Positions 6,487-11,141 of a DNA stretch of 64,000 nt are shown here, one piece after another. Under the pieces are notes generated by a model. It searched no databases. It had not been told where the DNA came from and saw only the letters and a list, made by a program, of their open reading frames with translations. The DNA is from Oscillospiraceae bacterium (lineage in GTDB: Bacteria > Bacillota > Clostridia > Oscillospirales > Ruminococcaceae): positions 409,254 to 473,253 of the forward strand of contig JAJQGT010000006.1 of the NCBI GenBank assembly GCA_021201135.1. Reading direction: 5' to 3'. Made by a program: the position numbers and the translations under genes. The stretch's first letter is position 1. Every line of letters begins with the position of its first letter.

Positions 6487-9400
6487 TCACTTTCTCTTTG
6501 AGGAGACAATCGCCAGAGCGGCTATTGCCAGAGGTACAAGCGAGAGCGCAACGCCGGTTGTCGGATTGGTTTCTGCTGAAACCTCCGGCTCGGAAACGGT
6601 TTCGCCTTCGTCCTCGGTCTTGGTGTTGGTGTCTTCGATGGGGTCGGAGACGGTTATAGTCTCTTCGGTTGTGGTTGTAGTGGTTGTTGTAGTGGGAGTA
6701 GTGGTCGTTGTTGTACTACTCAGGCTTGAGATATCAATCTGACTGTCGCTATACCAAACGCCATTATAGTAGATAGAAGCTATCTTTGTCGGAACGCCAT
6801 TACTGTACGACGAAGTGATTGTTGCGGGAATGACAGTGCGACCGCCGCAAGAACTGCAATAGAATATACCGACTGCCGAATTTAAGTCGCTCGACCAGTT
6901 CCAACCACTCAAGACATATGTATGTGTATGCTCTGTTGAAGCCTCTTCAAATGTCGGGGTGATTGTAACTGCCGACGAAGGCATTGTGAAGGTATAAGCA
7001 CTTCCGGACAATGTCACCGTAATAGTGTTTCCATAGGAATCAACAACCGTAACGCCGGTAACTGAATAGCCATCTGCGAGAGTTATTGTTATGGTAACGG
7101 TCTCGCCCTCTGCCGCTTCGGTCTTATCAACCGTAACAGTACCTCCGGTAACGGTTACGGTAACTGTTACCGTGTATGTTTCCGAAGGATCTGTAGGCTC
7201 ATCGGTTGCTTCTTCTTCAAACACAGCCGCTACAGTTACATTGTTTTCGGGCATTGTGAACGAGTAATCATCAGCAACGGTAATTTCATTTCCGTCAGCA
7301 TCGGTGACAGTTACACTCGAAACAACATAACCTTCATCAGGTGTTACAGTCAAGGTAACTGTGTCTCCTGCTTCGGCAGTGTCAACATCAGCCGTAACCG
7401 TACCGTTCTCAGCTTCGCCGACTGTTACTGTATAAGTTGTAGGTTCAACTGCTTCTGCTTCAAATACGACTGAAATAGTAACACTGTTTTCAGGCATTGT
7501 GAATGAGTAATCATCAGCAACGGTAATTTCATTTCCGTCAGCGTCAGTAACGGTTACACTCGAAACAACATAGCCTTCATCAGGTGTTACAGTCAAAGTA
7601 ACTGTGTCTCCTGCTTCGGCAGTGTCAACATCCGCCGTAACCGTGCCGTTCTCAACTTCGCCAATTGTTACAGCATAAGTTGTAGGCTCGGGTTCCGTTT
7701 CATTAATGGTAACGGAAATATCGGTAACGCTTACATATGAGCCATCACTGCCAATCCACCAAAGCTGAATCTGTGCATAATCTGAGGCAACATCAACCGT
7801 ATATGTCCAGACATCGGGAGATGCTGTGGATTCAATAGTTCCCGCACTTGCCCAAGAATAACCTTCTTCGGCTGTATCATCGGGAGTATTGACTCCGATT
7901 GTGCCGTTGAAATAAGTTCCGTCACTTTCAACTGTAACATTGATAGTAACATTATCACCGGAAACTATCTCATCAGCGTCATCGCAATAATCGCTCAGTG
8001 TGAACGCAAAACTTGCATAGTTGCCATTATCAGCCCATTCGTCTCTTGTAACTGTCCAGATTGCCGTGTCTTCCACAACCTCGGCAAATACAGCCGTAAC
8101 GGTGACATCATTTTCGGGCATTGTGAATGTATAATCATCAGCCAGAGTTACTTCGTTCCCTGCTTCGTCGGTAACAGTCACACTTGAAACCTCGTAACCA
8201 TCATCAGGTGTTACAGTCAAAGTAACAGTATCCCCCGCCGCCGCAGTTTCGACATCCGCAACGACTGTGCCGTTTGTGGTTTCGTCAATTGTGATTTCGT
8301 ATTCCGGTACATAGTTGTAGTGAATGGTTGCATAATAAAGCCCAGTATTGCAAGAGGATAGTACACAGACATCTATTGAATTCCATTCACTTTCCGAACC
8401 ATAGTAGTACACATCAGTTAAATTTTCCCCAAAAGTTAGAGAATCCCCAAATGCGTAATAACCTATACTTGTCACTGTCTTTGGAATATACAATGTCGCC
8501 AAATACGAAGCACAATCAAAAGCATACTCACTAATGTGAACCACACTGTTAGGAATCGCATATGATACGTTGCTTGATTTTCCAGAATAAGCCAATAAAA
8601 CTGTCTGATCTTTGCTAAATAATATACCATCAATATCACAGTAATACTGATTGTCCCCATCCACGTTGATACTAGACAAATTATAGCATGCACGAAACGC
8701 AGACTCTTCAATGTTTGTAACACCAGCAGGAATATCAATACTTGAAATATAAGACCACATAAACGCTTCTTTGCCTATGCTCAAACCGCTTACATCTTCG
8801 GAGATTGTGACAGTCTTTATTTTTTCACTGCAAAATGCTTCAACACCTATGTTAGTTACGCTCGAAGGAACAGAAATATTTTGGAGATGCTTGCAACTGA
8901 AAAAAGCACCATCAGCAATAGTAGTAACACCGTCTGGAATAGCATAAGACGCACCCGTACGACCAACAGGATAAAAAATAAGTTCAGTACCATCTTTGTT
9001 GAATAGAACTCCATCCACATCTAAGTAATACTTATTATCTTCTGAAACTGTAATTGACGTCAAACTCTCACAGTAAAATGCACCACCGCTGGTAAGCGCC
9101 GAGCCAGTTTCATCAACATATACATACGAAGCTGCGTCGATGCTAACAACAGAATCAGGAATACTAACACTTGTTAATGCAGTTTCTACAAAAGCATATT
9201 CGTGAATCTCCAACAATGTATCTGGTAACGACACGCTAGAAAGCGAAGTGAAGTAGTAAAAGGCGCCTTTTCCGATGGTAGTAACACCTTCTTCAATTAC
9301 AACAGATGTAACAACCACGTCAGCAGTATATGAACTTTTGTAAATTGACCACGGAACATCTGATAGAATTCCTGTATATCTATAATTACTAAAGTCTTCC

Positions 9401-9588
9401 ATAGCACCTGTTCCGGAAATTGTTAGTACTCCGTCAGACGTGAGTGACCAACTTAGGTTGCTTCCATCTGCTCCGAATGTACCTGAATCAACAACCGTAA
9501 CATCATCCGCCACCGTGACCATGCCAAGCATACTCACCGCCAGTACCAATGCTGTGACGACCGCCAAAACCTTCCTTAATTTCTTCAC
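6487..9588 (-). CDS. BspA-like leucine-rich cell-wall protein, NPTTG sortase anchor
   Basis: 1033 aa from GTG with GGAGGA 6 nt upstream. A signal peptide (residues 1-27) is followed by LRR_5/BspA-type repeats to about 420 (ITVSEDNKYYLDVDGVLFNKDG occurs in two versions). Then come a divergent InlB B-like repeat near 430-510, a beta-rich domain near 510-630 resembling a carbohydrate-binding module, and three more B-like repeats to about 880. The tail has a Thr-rich linker (TTTTTTPTTTTTTTTT), an acidic stretch, NPTTG at 1008-1012, a hydrophobic segment and SSKRK, the order expected of a sortase substrate. BspA relatives bind host proteins or matrix; the ligand here is unknown. The anchor region is shared with the protein at 36277-39066. 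The leader is unusual (see 9589-9745). Confidence 0.9.
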   Translation of the reverse strand: MKKLRKVLAVVTALVLAVSMLGMVTVADDVTVVDSGTFGADGSNLSWSLTSDGVLTISGTGAMEDFSNYRYTGILSDVPWSIYKSSYTADVVVTSVVIEEGVTTIGKGAFYYFTSLSSVSLPDTLLEIHEYAFVETALTSVSIPDSVVSIDAASYVYVDETGSALTSGGAFYCESLTSITVSEDNKYYLDVDGVLFNKDGTELIFYPVGRTGASYAIPDGVTTIADGAFFSCKHLQNISVPSSVTNIGVEAFCSEKIKTVTISEDVSGLSIGKEAFMWSYISSIDIPAGVTNIEESAFRACYNLSSINVDGDNQYYCDIDGILFSKDQTVLLAYSGKSSNVSYAIPNSVVHISEYAFDCASYLATLYIPKTVTSIGYYAFGDSLTFGENLTDVYYYGSESEWNSIDVCVLSSCNTGLYYATIHYNYVPEYEITIDETTNGTVVADVETAAAGDTVTLTVTPDDGYEVSSVTVTDEAGNEVTLADDYTFTMPENDVTVTAVFAEVVEDTAIWTVTRDEWADNGNYASFAFTLSDYCDDADEIVSGDNVTINVTVESDGTYFNGTIGVNTPDDTAEEGYSWASAGTIESTASPDVWTYTVDVASDYAQIQLWWIGSDGSYVSVTDISVTINETEPEPTTYAVTIGEVENGTVTADVDTAEAGDTVTLTVTPDEGYVVSSVTVTDADGNEITVADDYSFTMPENSVTISVVFEAEAVEPTTYTVTVGEAENGTVTADVDTAEAGDTVTLTVTPDEGYVVSSVTVTDADGNEITVADDYSFTMPENNVTVAAVFEEEATDEPTDPSETYTVTVTVTVTGGTVTVDKTEAAEGETVTITITLADGYSVTGVTVVDSYGNTITVTLSGSAYTFTMPSSAVTITPTFEEASTEHTHTYVLSGWNWSSDLNSAVGIFYCSSCGGRTVIPATITSSYSNGVPTKIASIYYNGVWYSDSQIDISSLSSTTTTTTPTTTTTTTTTEETITVSDPIEDTNTKTEDEGETVSEPEVSAETNPTTGVALSLVPLAIAALAIVSSKRK
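7251..7686 (-). repeat. near-identical tandem B-repeat duplication inside the BspA-like gene
   Basis: Segments 7251-7443 and 7494-7686 are nearly the same over about 193 bp, with a 243-bp (81-codon) period. By eye only about one base in fifteen differs. A more diverged copy lies near 8110-8290. The two close copies encode GDTVTLTVTPDEGYVVSSVT-type units and point to recent duplication or gene conversion. Confidence 0.85.
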
Positions 9589-9594
9589 AATAAA

Positions 9595-9619
9595 TCCTCC
9601 TCGGTTGTGCCAAGGAGGA
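9595..9619 (-). promoter_or_regulatory. Shine-Dalgarno-sequestering hairpin of the first BspA-like gene
   Basis: The leader folds as UCCUCCUUGG - CACAA - CCGAGGAGGA: a 10-bp stem with one G-U pair. It buries the whole GGAGGA ribosome site lying 6 nt before GTG at 9588. A similar hairpin precedes the other BspA-like gene at 39077-39100. Confidence 0.65.
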
Positions 9620-9631
9620 CAAAATACAGAT

Positions 9632-9665
9632 AAAAAACCCCCACAGCACTGTTTAGTGTCGGAGG
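9632..9665 (-). terminator. intrinsic terminator inside the BspA-like leader
   Basis: CCTCC (9661-9665) pairs with GGGGG (9638-9642), with ACT/AGT pairing near the loop, followed by six T on the reverse strand. It lies about 45 nt before the start codon, so it would stop transcription before the gene. Confidence 0.6.
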
Positions 9666-9751
9666 TTGAAAATTGGGCGTACGAAAGGTACTACCCCCCC
9701 GCATCGATTTTTGTGATTAAGTATCCGACAGGATGCTCAACCTATGTTAAA

Positions 9752-9780
9752 ATTGTAGCATAATTAATCCCGGTTGTCAA
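9752..9780 (-). promoter_or_regulatory. sigma-A promoter for the first BspA-like gene
   Basis: TTGACA, 17 bp, TACAAT. The promoter of the other BspA-like gene has exactly the same boxes and spacing. Confidence 0.75.
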
Positions 9781-9819
9781 TAGCTTTTTATAGATATTTT
9801 GAATTTTTTTGCGGACAGG

Positions 9820-9848
9820 TTGAAATCGGGTCGGAAATCACTTATAAT
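9820..9848 (+). promoter_or_regulatory. sigma-A promoter for the GH27 gene
   Basis: TTGAAA, 17 bp, TATAAT. The start is predicted near 9855, about 27 nt before the ATG. Confidence 0.75.
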
Positions 9849-9881
9849 AGCTTCGAAGACATTTTCACTTGGAGGCATATT

Positions 9882-11141
9882 ATGATTACAGCAAAATACC
9901 CGCCTATGGGGTGGAACAGTTGGGACTGCTACGGCGCGGCGGTTGACGAGAAGACCGTTCGGGCTAATGCGGACTATATGGCGAAGAATCTTAAGGAATA
10001 CGGTTGGGAGTATATCGTCGTTGACATCGAGTGGTATCAGCCGACGGTCACGACGCACGAGTATCTGCCGTTTGCGGAGCTCGTTATGGACGAATACGGC
10101 AGACTTTTGCCGGCGGAGAACCGGTTCCCTTCCGCAAAGGGCGGCAAGGGCTTTGCGCCGCTGGCGGAGTATGTCCATGAGCTCGGGCTCAAGTTCGGAA
10201 TCCACATTATGAGAGGAATCCCGAGGCAGGCGGTTCACGAAAACTGCCCGGTTCTCGGAAGCGAGTTCACCGCCCGTCAGGTTGCCGAATACAACGACGT
10301 CTGCGAGTGGAACCCGGATATGTACGGGCTCAAGTACGACTGCAAGGGCGCCGCAGACTATTACAACAGCATTTTCAGGCTATATGCCGAGTGGGGCGTG
10401 GACTTCGTCAAGGTCGACGACATCTGCCGCAACAACGACAACGAGGGCGAAATCATGCTCATTGCTGACGCTATCAGAAACAGCGGCAAAGAGATGGTCC
10501 TGAGCCTTTCACCGGGACCGGCAAAGGTTTCGCAGGCGGAGTTCCTCAAAAAATACGCCAACATGTGGCGCATCACCGACGACTTCTGGGACAAGTGGGA
10601 GCTTCTTTACGCGATGTTTGAGCGTGCCGAAGCTTGGTGCAACCATGCGGGACCGGGGCACTTCCCCGACTGCGACATGTTGCCGATCGGTCCCATCAAT
10701 CAGGTCTATTCGAAGGACAACCGCACCAATTTCACCCGTAACGAACAGAAGACGATGATGTCGCTATGGTGCATGGTGCGCTCTCCCCTGATGATTGGCG
10801 GCGAGATGAACGGGTTTGATGACTTCACTCTGTCGCTTGTCAAGAACCGCGAGCTCCTCGAAATTGAGAAGACGACCTTCTGTGCCCACATGTTCGAGAG
10901 GAAGGACGTTGACGGTTGCGAGACGATAACGTGGTTCGCCCCGAGGGTTGACGGAAGCGGCTGTTACCTCGCCCTCTTCAATGCCGGTGAGAAGCCTGCC
11001 CGAATCAGCGTCCCCTTAGATTCCATCGGCATAAGTGTGACAAAAGCCTACGACATCTGGGAGAAGACAACCGAGGACGTCAAGGACGTTGTTTCGGGAG
11101 TCGTGAATCCGCATGGGGTCAAGCTTGTAAAGCTGAGTTGA
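9882..11141 (+). CDS. GH27-family alpha-galactosidase
   Basis: 419 aa from the ATG at 9882, chosen because GGAGG lies 6 nt upstream and a promoter sits just before it; a longer reading from 9774 would include the promoter. PPMGWNSWDCYG at residues 7-18 is the clan GH-D N-terminal signature. WGVDFVKVDDIC places the nucleophile at Asp179 and MWRITDDFWD holds the acid/base Asp near 233-234. The Cys-rich context (CEWNPDMYGLKYDC) and WCMVRSPLMIGG also fit GH27. Retaining enzymes of this family release alpha-galactose (or alpha-N-acetylgalactosamine) from oligosaccharides. No signal peptide is present, so the substrate is probably imported. The gene is divergent from the BspA-like gene and ends in its own terminator. 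Confidence 0.88.
   Translation: MITAKYPPMGWNSWDCYGAAVDEKTVRANADYMAKNLKEYGWEYIVVDIEWYQPTVTTHEYLPFAELVMDEYGRLLPAENRFPSAKGGKGFAPLAEYVHELGLKFGIHIMRGIPRQAVHENCPVLGSEFTARQVAEYNDVCEWNPDMYGLKYDCKGAADYYNSIFRLYAEWGVDFVKVDDICRNNDNEGEIMLIADAIRNSGKEMVLSLSPGPAKVSQAEFLKKYANMWRITDDFWDKWELLYAMFERAEAWCNHAGPGHFPDCDMLPIGPINQVYSKDNRTNFTRNEQKTMMSLWCMVRSPLMIGGEMNGFDDFTLSLVKNRELLEIEKTTFCAHMFERKDVDGCETITWFAPRVDGSGCYLALFNAGEKPARISVPLDSIGISVTKAYDIWEKTTEDVKDVVSGVVNPHGVKLVKLS

Follow-up and report, generated by a model that had tools for sequence, protein, structure and literature searches.

A candidate family of attenuator-type leader RNAs ahead of surface and secreted protein genes in one clade of Ruminococcus-like bacteria

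We analysed a stretch of 64,000 nucleotides from an Oscillospiraceae bacterium (hereafter the window), whose minus strand carries, from 9745 to 9589, a leader flanked by a promoter-like site and the gene for a 1033-aa BspA-repeat surface protein. This leader is probably a member of a family of cis-regulatory leader RNAs that is restricted to one clade and would gate a regulon of surface and secreted proteins by switching between an antiterminator and a terminator; we put the probability of this reading at about 0.75. As judged from comparison of the copies, the element comprises two mutually exclusive helices and the hairpins P2, T1 and H2, and is associated with genes of this kind. The finding suggests that Ruminococcus-like bacteria have a regulon of surface and export genes under RNA control. 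The original prediction for this locus had proposed an attenuator-type leader outside the known classes and ahead of a surface protein; that part of its interpretation is supported by the data below, and the closing helix that it named is not.

In the window, the RNA is predicted to start at about 9745, because a promoter-like site lies at 9780-9752 on the minus strand (TTGACA, 17 nt, TACAAT; 11-of-12, with TG before the -10 element). This agrees with the start about 2 nt before the closing helix that had been proposed. Four promoter-like sites were found in the 1-kb stretch against 1.5 expected, and similar sites were seen by eye ahead of the relatives' copies. The leader fold was 4.15 sd below dinucleotide shuffles (z -4.15), with 0 of 200 shuffles as low. 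Reading along the minus strand, predicted folds place a 5'-terminal hairpin, P1, at 9742-9715 (GGUUGAG/CUUAAUC, inner AUCC/GGAU). It is followed by a pyrimidine and a G-tract (C9701 and G9700-9694; 9701-9694 together), the candidate 5' strand of the antiterminator, whose last three G double as the closing strand of hairpin P2 (9696-9675; GGGU(A)GUAC...GUACGCCC). P2 is supported by covariation and has a conserved bulged A at 9692. The switch strand C1, CCUCCG at 9665-9660, has two possible partners, C9701 with the G-tract (antiterminator) or UGGGGG at 9643-9638 (terminator). The latter pairing belongs to T1, a terminator-like hairpin at 9665-9632 (CCUCCGACACU...AGUGCUGUGGGGG) followed by six T (a U6 tract in the RNA), which is based on predicted folding and covariation. 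Finally, an 11-bp hairpin, H2, at 9620-9594 holds the ribosome-binding AGGAGG (9601-9596) ahead of the GTG start at 9588. Thus, the GC-rich terminator with six T and the further hairpin hiding the ribosome site, both named in the original prediction, were recovered together with the promoter-like site. A simple terminator scan listed the second hairpin and not the first (1 found versus 0.7 expected), and so the first hairpin gains no support from the terminator count.

The remaining element of that prediction, a 7-bp closing helix formed by AGGTTGA (9743-9737) and TCAACCT (9669-9663), did not hold up as a conserved feature. A matching 7-of-7 pairing was possible in 2 of 106 parsed copies, as compared to 1.1 expected from shuffled upstream sequence, and the helix was therefore rejected as the antiterminator. 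It was absent from both minimum-energy folds, each of which paired its 5' strand locally with CUUAAUC; the centroid of an 84-nt fragment contained six of its seven pairs. Instead, the strand that is conserved as a competitor of the terminator is the G-tract at 9700-9694, which had not been named. In relatives, then, the terminator was kept with compensatory changes and the closing helix was not.

When 60 relatives were searched at the DNA level, strong matches appeared in the same genus, often several per genome. We built a covariance model of the core (model R1) from 19 sequences, with 80 positions and 18 pairs; its structure was set by hand because the one obtained from the first alignment by RNAalifold was misaligned. 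At E <= 0.001 the model found 117 matches, which were spread over 11 of the 31 genomes of the genus, 3 to 20 in each (G000 8, G001 14, G002 14, G006 3, G009 11, G014 7, G020 20, G025 12, G027 9, G029 15 and G030 4); the remaining 20 had no match. Even draws of 394 genomes from the order and 197 from the family, searched with stricter filters, contained no credible match outside the genus; strong matches in them came from genus carriers only (G000 and G014 in the order draw, G000 in the family draw). Two weak matches of the order draw (G086 and G333) proved to be plain terminators on reading and were dropped before counts, as was one of the family draw (G493, E 2.8e-5), where a similar G-run/CCC/CCUCC string lay inside a 369-aa coding frame. 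Records that matched a pattern taken from one subgroup were titled Ruminococcus sp., Clostridiales bacterium or Oscillospiraceae bacterium, and all were MAGs. A phage collection yielded no match, by which a phage origin was rejected, and two pattern matches on viral contigs lacked the element on reading. Each of the 11 carriers has a single NusG in which an acidic-basic insertion of 4-7 residues (an extra loop) precedes LFPSYV; the insertion is absent from 17 other readable NusG proteins (L184-L194 versus L195-L213). Because this insertion is common to all 11 and missing from the 17, the carriers are probably one clade on sequence grounds; the insertion itself may be a clade marker or a lead to the missing factor.

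The conserved core reads YGGGGGG-(hairpin)-CCC-AACCUCCR-(hairpin)-GGRGG, usually followed by a U-rich tract and then by a hairpin that covers the ribosome site. Expressed as an order of elements, it consists of P1, YGGGGGG, P2, a short linker ending in AA, CCUCCR, an apical stem, GGRGG, usually a T-rich stretch, a second CCUCC and AGGAGG. After removal of 5 of the 117 matches whose core was the same as that of another, and of 6 that did not parse (these may be decayed or false), 106 copies were left. A hairpin was usual at the P1 position with a sequence that varied widely between copies; its mean fold was -9.9 kcal/mol versus -4.7 kcal/mol for mononucleotide shuffles across the 106 copies, in 75 of which at most 1 of 30 shuffles was as low. 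Within one subfamily, the P1 stem of L047 was, by eye, retained despite several changes. P2 retained GGGU/ACCC closing pairs and the bulged A, and was much longer in some relatives. For P2 and T1, 101 aligned matches showed changes on both sides in 13 of 18 pairs with 92.3% of cells paired, as compared to 0 of 500 shuffles as high and 38-57% pairing for slid partners. Similarly, the 17 matches left out of this alignment, low-scoring ones included, gave 12 of 18 pairs and 88.5% paired (slid, 37-54%), both alignments having been fitted to, and thus leaning towards, the tested structure. Some unpaired letters were conserved as well, including the bulged A after GGGU (96/101), R after CCC (97/101) and the AA before CCUCC (93/101 and 94/101). 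Overall, the two alternative pairings account for most conserved letters, and few conserved unpaired letters remain.

The central feature is that CCUCC can pair with the G-tract, forming the antiterminator, or can be taken by GGRGG, forming the terminator. The G-tract/CCUCCR helix lies outside the covariance model and so was not fitted by it. Its covariation score was 0.111, versus 0.080 +- 0.006 for shuffled and 0.004-0.011 for slid partners, with two of five covariation measures not separating from shuffles. Since one strand is a G-run, 98.5% of cells remain paired when the partner is slid by +1, and the outer Y-R pair is the only one variable enough for a covariation test. This pair, which provides a built-in test of the switch, was non-standard in 5 of 94 rows of the model alignment. 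When the 106 copies were read directly, it was C-G in 59, U-A in 28, U-G in 18, A-G in 1 and C-A in none, one copy with CCUCC within P2 having been re-read by inspection (it would otherwise count as C-A). On a tree built without the switch columns (96 copies), Y changed 11 times and R 9 times, and both changed on the same branch 4 times versus 0.97 expected from branch-length-weighted placement (P 0.006). In predicted folds of transcripts cut 9 nt past CCUCCR, the antiterminator formed in 80 of 106 copies and P2 alone, instead of it, in 25, and in completed transcripts T1 formed in 101 of 106 with the antiterminator kept in 4. Thus, comparison of the copies argues for a mutually exclusive antiterminator and terminator with covariation, the antiterminator's share being carried by one variable pair.

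These observations suggest the following model. As the RNA emerges, the G-tract (YGGGGG) would pair with CCUCCR to form the antiterminator; should this not hold, the later GGRGG would take CCUCC and form T1, which in most copies resembles an intrinsic terminator. H2 would then mask the ribosome site or, in some copies, act like a second terminator. We infer that termination occurs at T1 in vivo, that the default state is OFF and that some factor stabilizes the antiterminator. In a minority class without a T run, pairing of the freed GGAGG with the second CCUCC may expose the ribosome site.

With regard to translation, the ribosome site was paired in 68 of 80 copies with a near gene, versus 48.2 expected from shuffles. 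At least five T occurred in the nine bases after GGRGG in 72 of 84 copies with a recognizable second C-strand, five of these 72 belonging to the minority class, with the T interrupted. The minority class comprised 13 copies in which the strand that follows GGAGG was complementary to the one that precedes the second CCUCC (for example, GGAGGUUAUA...UAUAGCCUCC). The first pair of such extended pairing was present in 56 of 84 copies versus 39.8 expected, unevenly between subfamilies. When the first CCUCC was withheld, predicted unmasking of the ribosome site exceeded 0.3 in 8 of 13 copies of the minority class (class B) and in 19 of 62 copies of the main class (class A), class B here being 13 copies picked by rule and slightly different from the 13 above. 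In the window copy the ribosome site stayed masked even with C1 withheld (0.00 to 0.00), so the relay does not explain translation there; as a general step it was rejected, and it was kept for the minority class only. In six copies (L055, L056, L058, L059, L041 and L040), the second hairpin ended in a T-run with no close start codon and, from its sequence, looks like a second terminator. Copies of this appearance precede genes for PP2C, FHA, Sel1, signal peptidase and Wzz-like proteins (L040 by eye).

The gene controlled in the window (6487-9588, minus strand) is, as anticipated, that of a surface protein. Its 1033-aa product has BspA-type LRR_5 and InlB-like (Flg_new_2) repeats and, by eye, a signal-peptide-like start and a C-terminal NPTTG-type anchor. 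A first gene was called for 114 of the 117 matches (111 distinct), and by a crude rule 87 of the 111 had signal-peptide-like starts; applied to 50 non-overlapping ORFs of the window, that rule picked out 14. A domain scan of 67 first genes, limited to at most the first 500 aa, found LRR_5 most often (10), followed by Glug (5), LRR_8 (5), Flg_new (3), Flg_new_2 (3), Cna_B (2), SpaA (2) and others. Ten first genes were of other kinds, including signal peptidase, FHA, PP2C, Sel1, dynamin-like, radical SAM and C39 ABC exporter genes; Wzz-like (EPS) and CpsD-like polysaccharide genes were also recognized by eye downstream of some copies. Besides, several copies lie near radical-SAM (L130), C39 ABC exporter (L177) and, by eye, HPr-kinase-like (L134) genes, and these surroundings are suggestive of peptide (RiPP-type) export clusters.

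If the switch operates as proposed, its stabilizing factor has about an even chance of being a trans-acting protein; a small ligand is a minority prospect, as is a leader that needs no factor and responds to G-tract length or folding speed alone. Independently of this, we considered what else the element could be. A recognition site for a trans-acting RNA-binding antiterminator protein, by analogy with BglG/LicT or LoaP, is a serious candidate held at somewhat under even odds: the element is clade-restricted, present in many copies before unrelated genes and poor in conserved unpaired letters, and the carriers' NusG has its extra acidic-basic loop, even if this may only mark the clade. However, the obvious protein families fail. 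LoaP is a second NusG-family protein, and among the 31 genomes no second NusG paralogue was found (one NusG in 30, none found in the non-carrier G021), so a LoaP-type paralogue is lacking there and a LoaP-dependent leader was rejected. CsrA and the BglG-type CAT_RBD were each found in 0 of 31 genomes, by which a CsrA-controlled leader and a BglG/LicT RAT leader were likewise rejected. ANTAR-controlled leaders have paired hairpins with an ANTAR loop signature. One ANTAR protein was present in each of the 11 carriers, but a match was also present in 18 of 20 non-carriers, and the signature was not seen in leader loops read by eye only; ANTAR control is not supported. The ANTAR protein scored lower in the 11 carriers (47-53 bits; G000 C9:746116 and relatives) than in most non-carriers having one. 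A small-molecule riboswitch, in which a ligand would stabilize the G-tract/CCUCC antiterminator or the P2 junction, is unlikely: many scattered copies ahead of related genes, an antiterminator/terminator platform and the conserved unpaired letters (bulged A, R after CCC, AA before CCUCC) would suit it, but dual pairing explains most conserved letters, the sequences of P1 and P2 and also the length of P2 vary widely, and the element is restricted to part of one genus. The signal c-di-GMP in particular is unlikely, because GGDEF and EAL were absent from all 11 carriers (they occurred in 18 and 13 of 20 non-carriers, respectively). The c-di-GMP-I riboswitch RF01051 was also found in none of the carriers and in 2 of 20 non-carriers, and neither c-di-GMP control nor membership in that class was retained. 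In no genome of the 31-genome sample did the element occur together with c-di-GMP enzyme genes.

It is also quite improbable that these are ordinary constitutive leaders, that is, a 5' hairpin and a leaky terminator spread by gene duplication and devoid of regulation. A signal-peptide consensus is common to many of the downstream genes, so that a leader could have been duplicated along with its gene, but the Y-R compensations argue against this explanation, as does the presence of the same core before unrelated genes (EPS/Wzz-like by eye, signal peptidase, FHA, PP2C, dynamin-like and C39 ABC exporter). G-tract length raises a further alternative, a phase-variable or rheostat leader in which slippage would alter the number of G and shift the balance between the antiterminator and P2/terminator with no ligand; we regard it as doubtful. 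The 106 copies had 7 G (55), 6 G (37), 8 G (11), 9 G (2) or 5 G (1), and, of 78 pairs of copies with at least 85% identity outside the run, 37 differed in its length, one such pair (7 and 6 G) being identical elsewhere in the compared stretch. The mean predicted antiterminator probability rose from 0.49 with 6 G (n 37) to 0.71 with 7 G (n 55) and 0.99 with 8 G (n 11), but it was 0.22 for the two 9-G copies and 0.00 for the 5-G copy; it exceeded 0.5 in only 21 of 37 six-G copies and in neither nine-G copy nor the five-G copy. Moreover, length and subfamily are confounded, the 78 pairs are not independent of one another, assembly errors are possible, and six to eight G is a short run for hypermutation. 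Because length differs between near-identical copies, an antiterminator/terminator switch tuned by slippage is nevertheless possible. A broader and rather speculative version would make the G-tract both switch strand and slippage-prone run, one or two G resetting the balance of each leader, so that a clade without detected c-di-GMP enzymes might use one cis-element family, with as many as 20 copies in a genome, to diversify its surface coat through phase variation at the RNA level.

The leader had been described as unassigned, and the Rfam search set as a check that could refute this returned no family for it. Rfam 15 at gathering threshold gave no match to the leader across the whole window (one tRNA elsewhere) and no family at 28 loci (8 + 20; one tRNA elsewhere among the 8), and a permissive scan of window positions 9500-9850 yielded chance-level matches only. 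In BglG/LicT-type RAT antiterminators an upstream strand competes with a terminator strand, as it would here, and the difference is that no CAT_RBD was found in the 31 genomes. Processive antitermination by LoaP and EAR links leader RNA to polysaccharide and other export genes; the present case differs in its single NusG per genome and in a competing terminator that is part of the element. It has been reported that the HMP-PP (thiS motif) riboswitch has its aptamer inside a terminator and is associated with thiamin synthesis genes (PMC6478431). There, a conserved terminator likewise doubles as a switch part with an exclusive alternative fold, whereas the present element has a G-tract upstream as the competitor, precedes surface and export genes, and gave no gathering-level Rfam match in the stretches searched. 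Two terminators have been reported in the Bc1 c-di-GMP riboswitch (PMC11218506), which some copies here resemble in this respect; the family is unlike c-di-GMP riboswitches in lacking an Rfam match and in the absence of GGDEF, EAL and RF01051 from all 11 carriers. No paper describing the element was found in the open-access literature searched, and large published candidate lists may include it under a number (PMC8040213). In kind, the element belongs with the attenuators; what appears to be new is a family that combines this G/C alternation with such a copy number and such a set of genes. The kinds of genes seen downstream, for surface proteins and export, are often governed by c-di-GMP, and a clade without detected c-di-GMP enzymes thus carries a different multi-copy control element before them.

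The promoter of the window leader adjoins the 5' region of a divergent gene on the plus strand (9820-11141). This gene has its own promoter-like site (TTGAAA-17-TATAAT), and by eye its product has the look of an alpha-galactosidase-type glycosidase.
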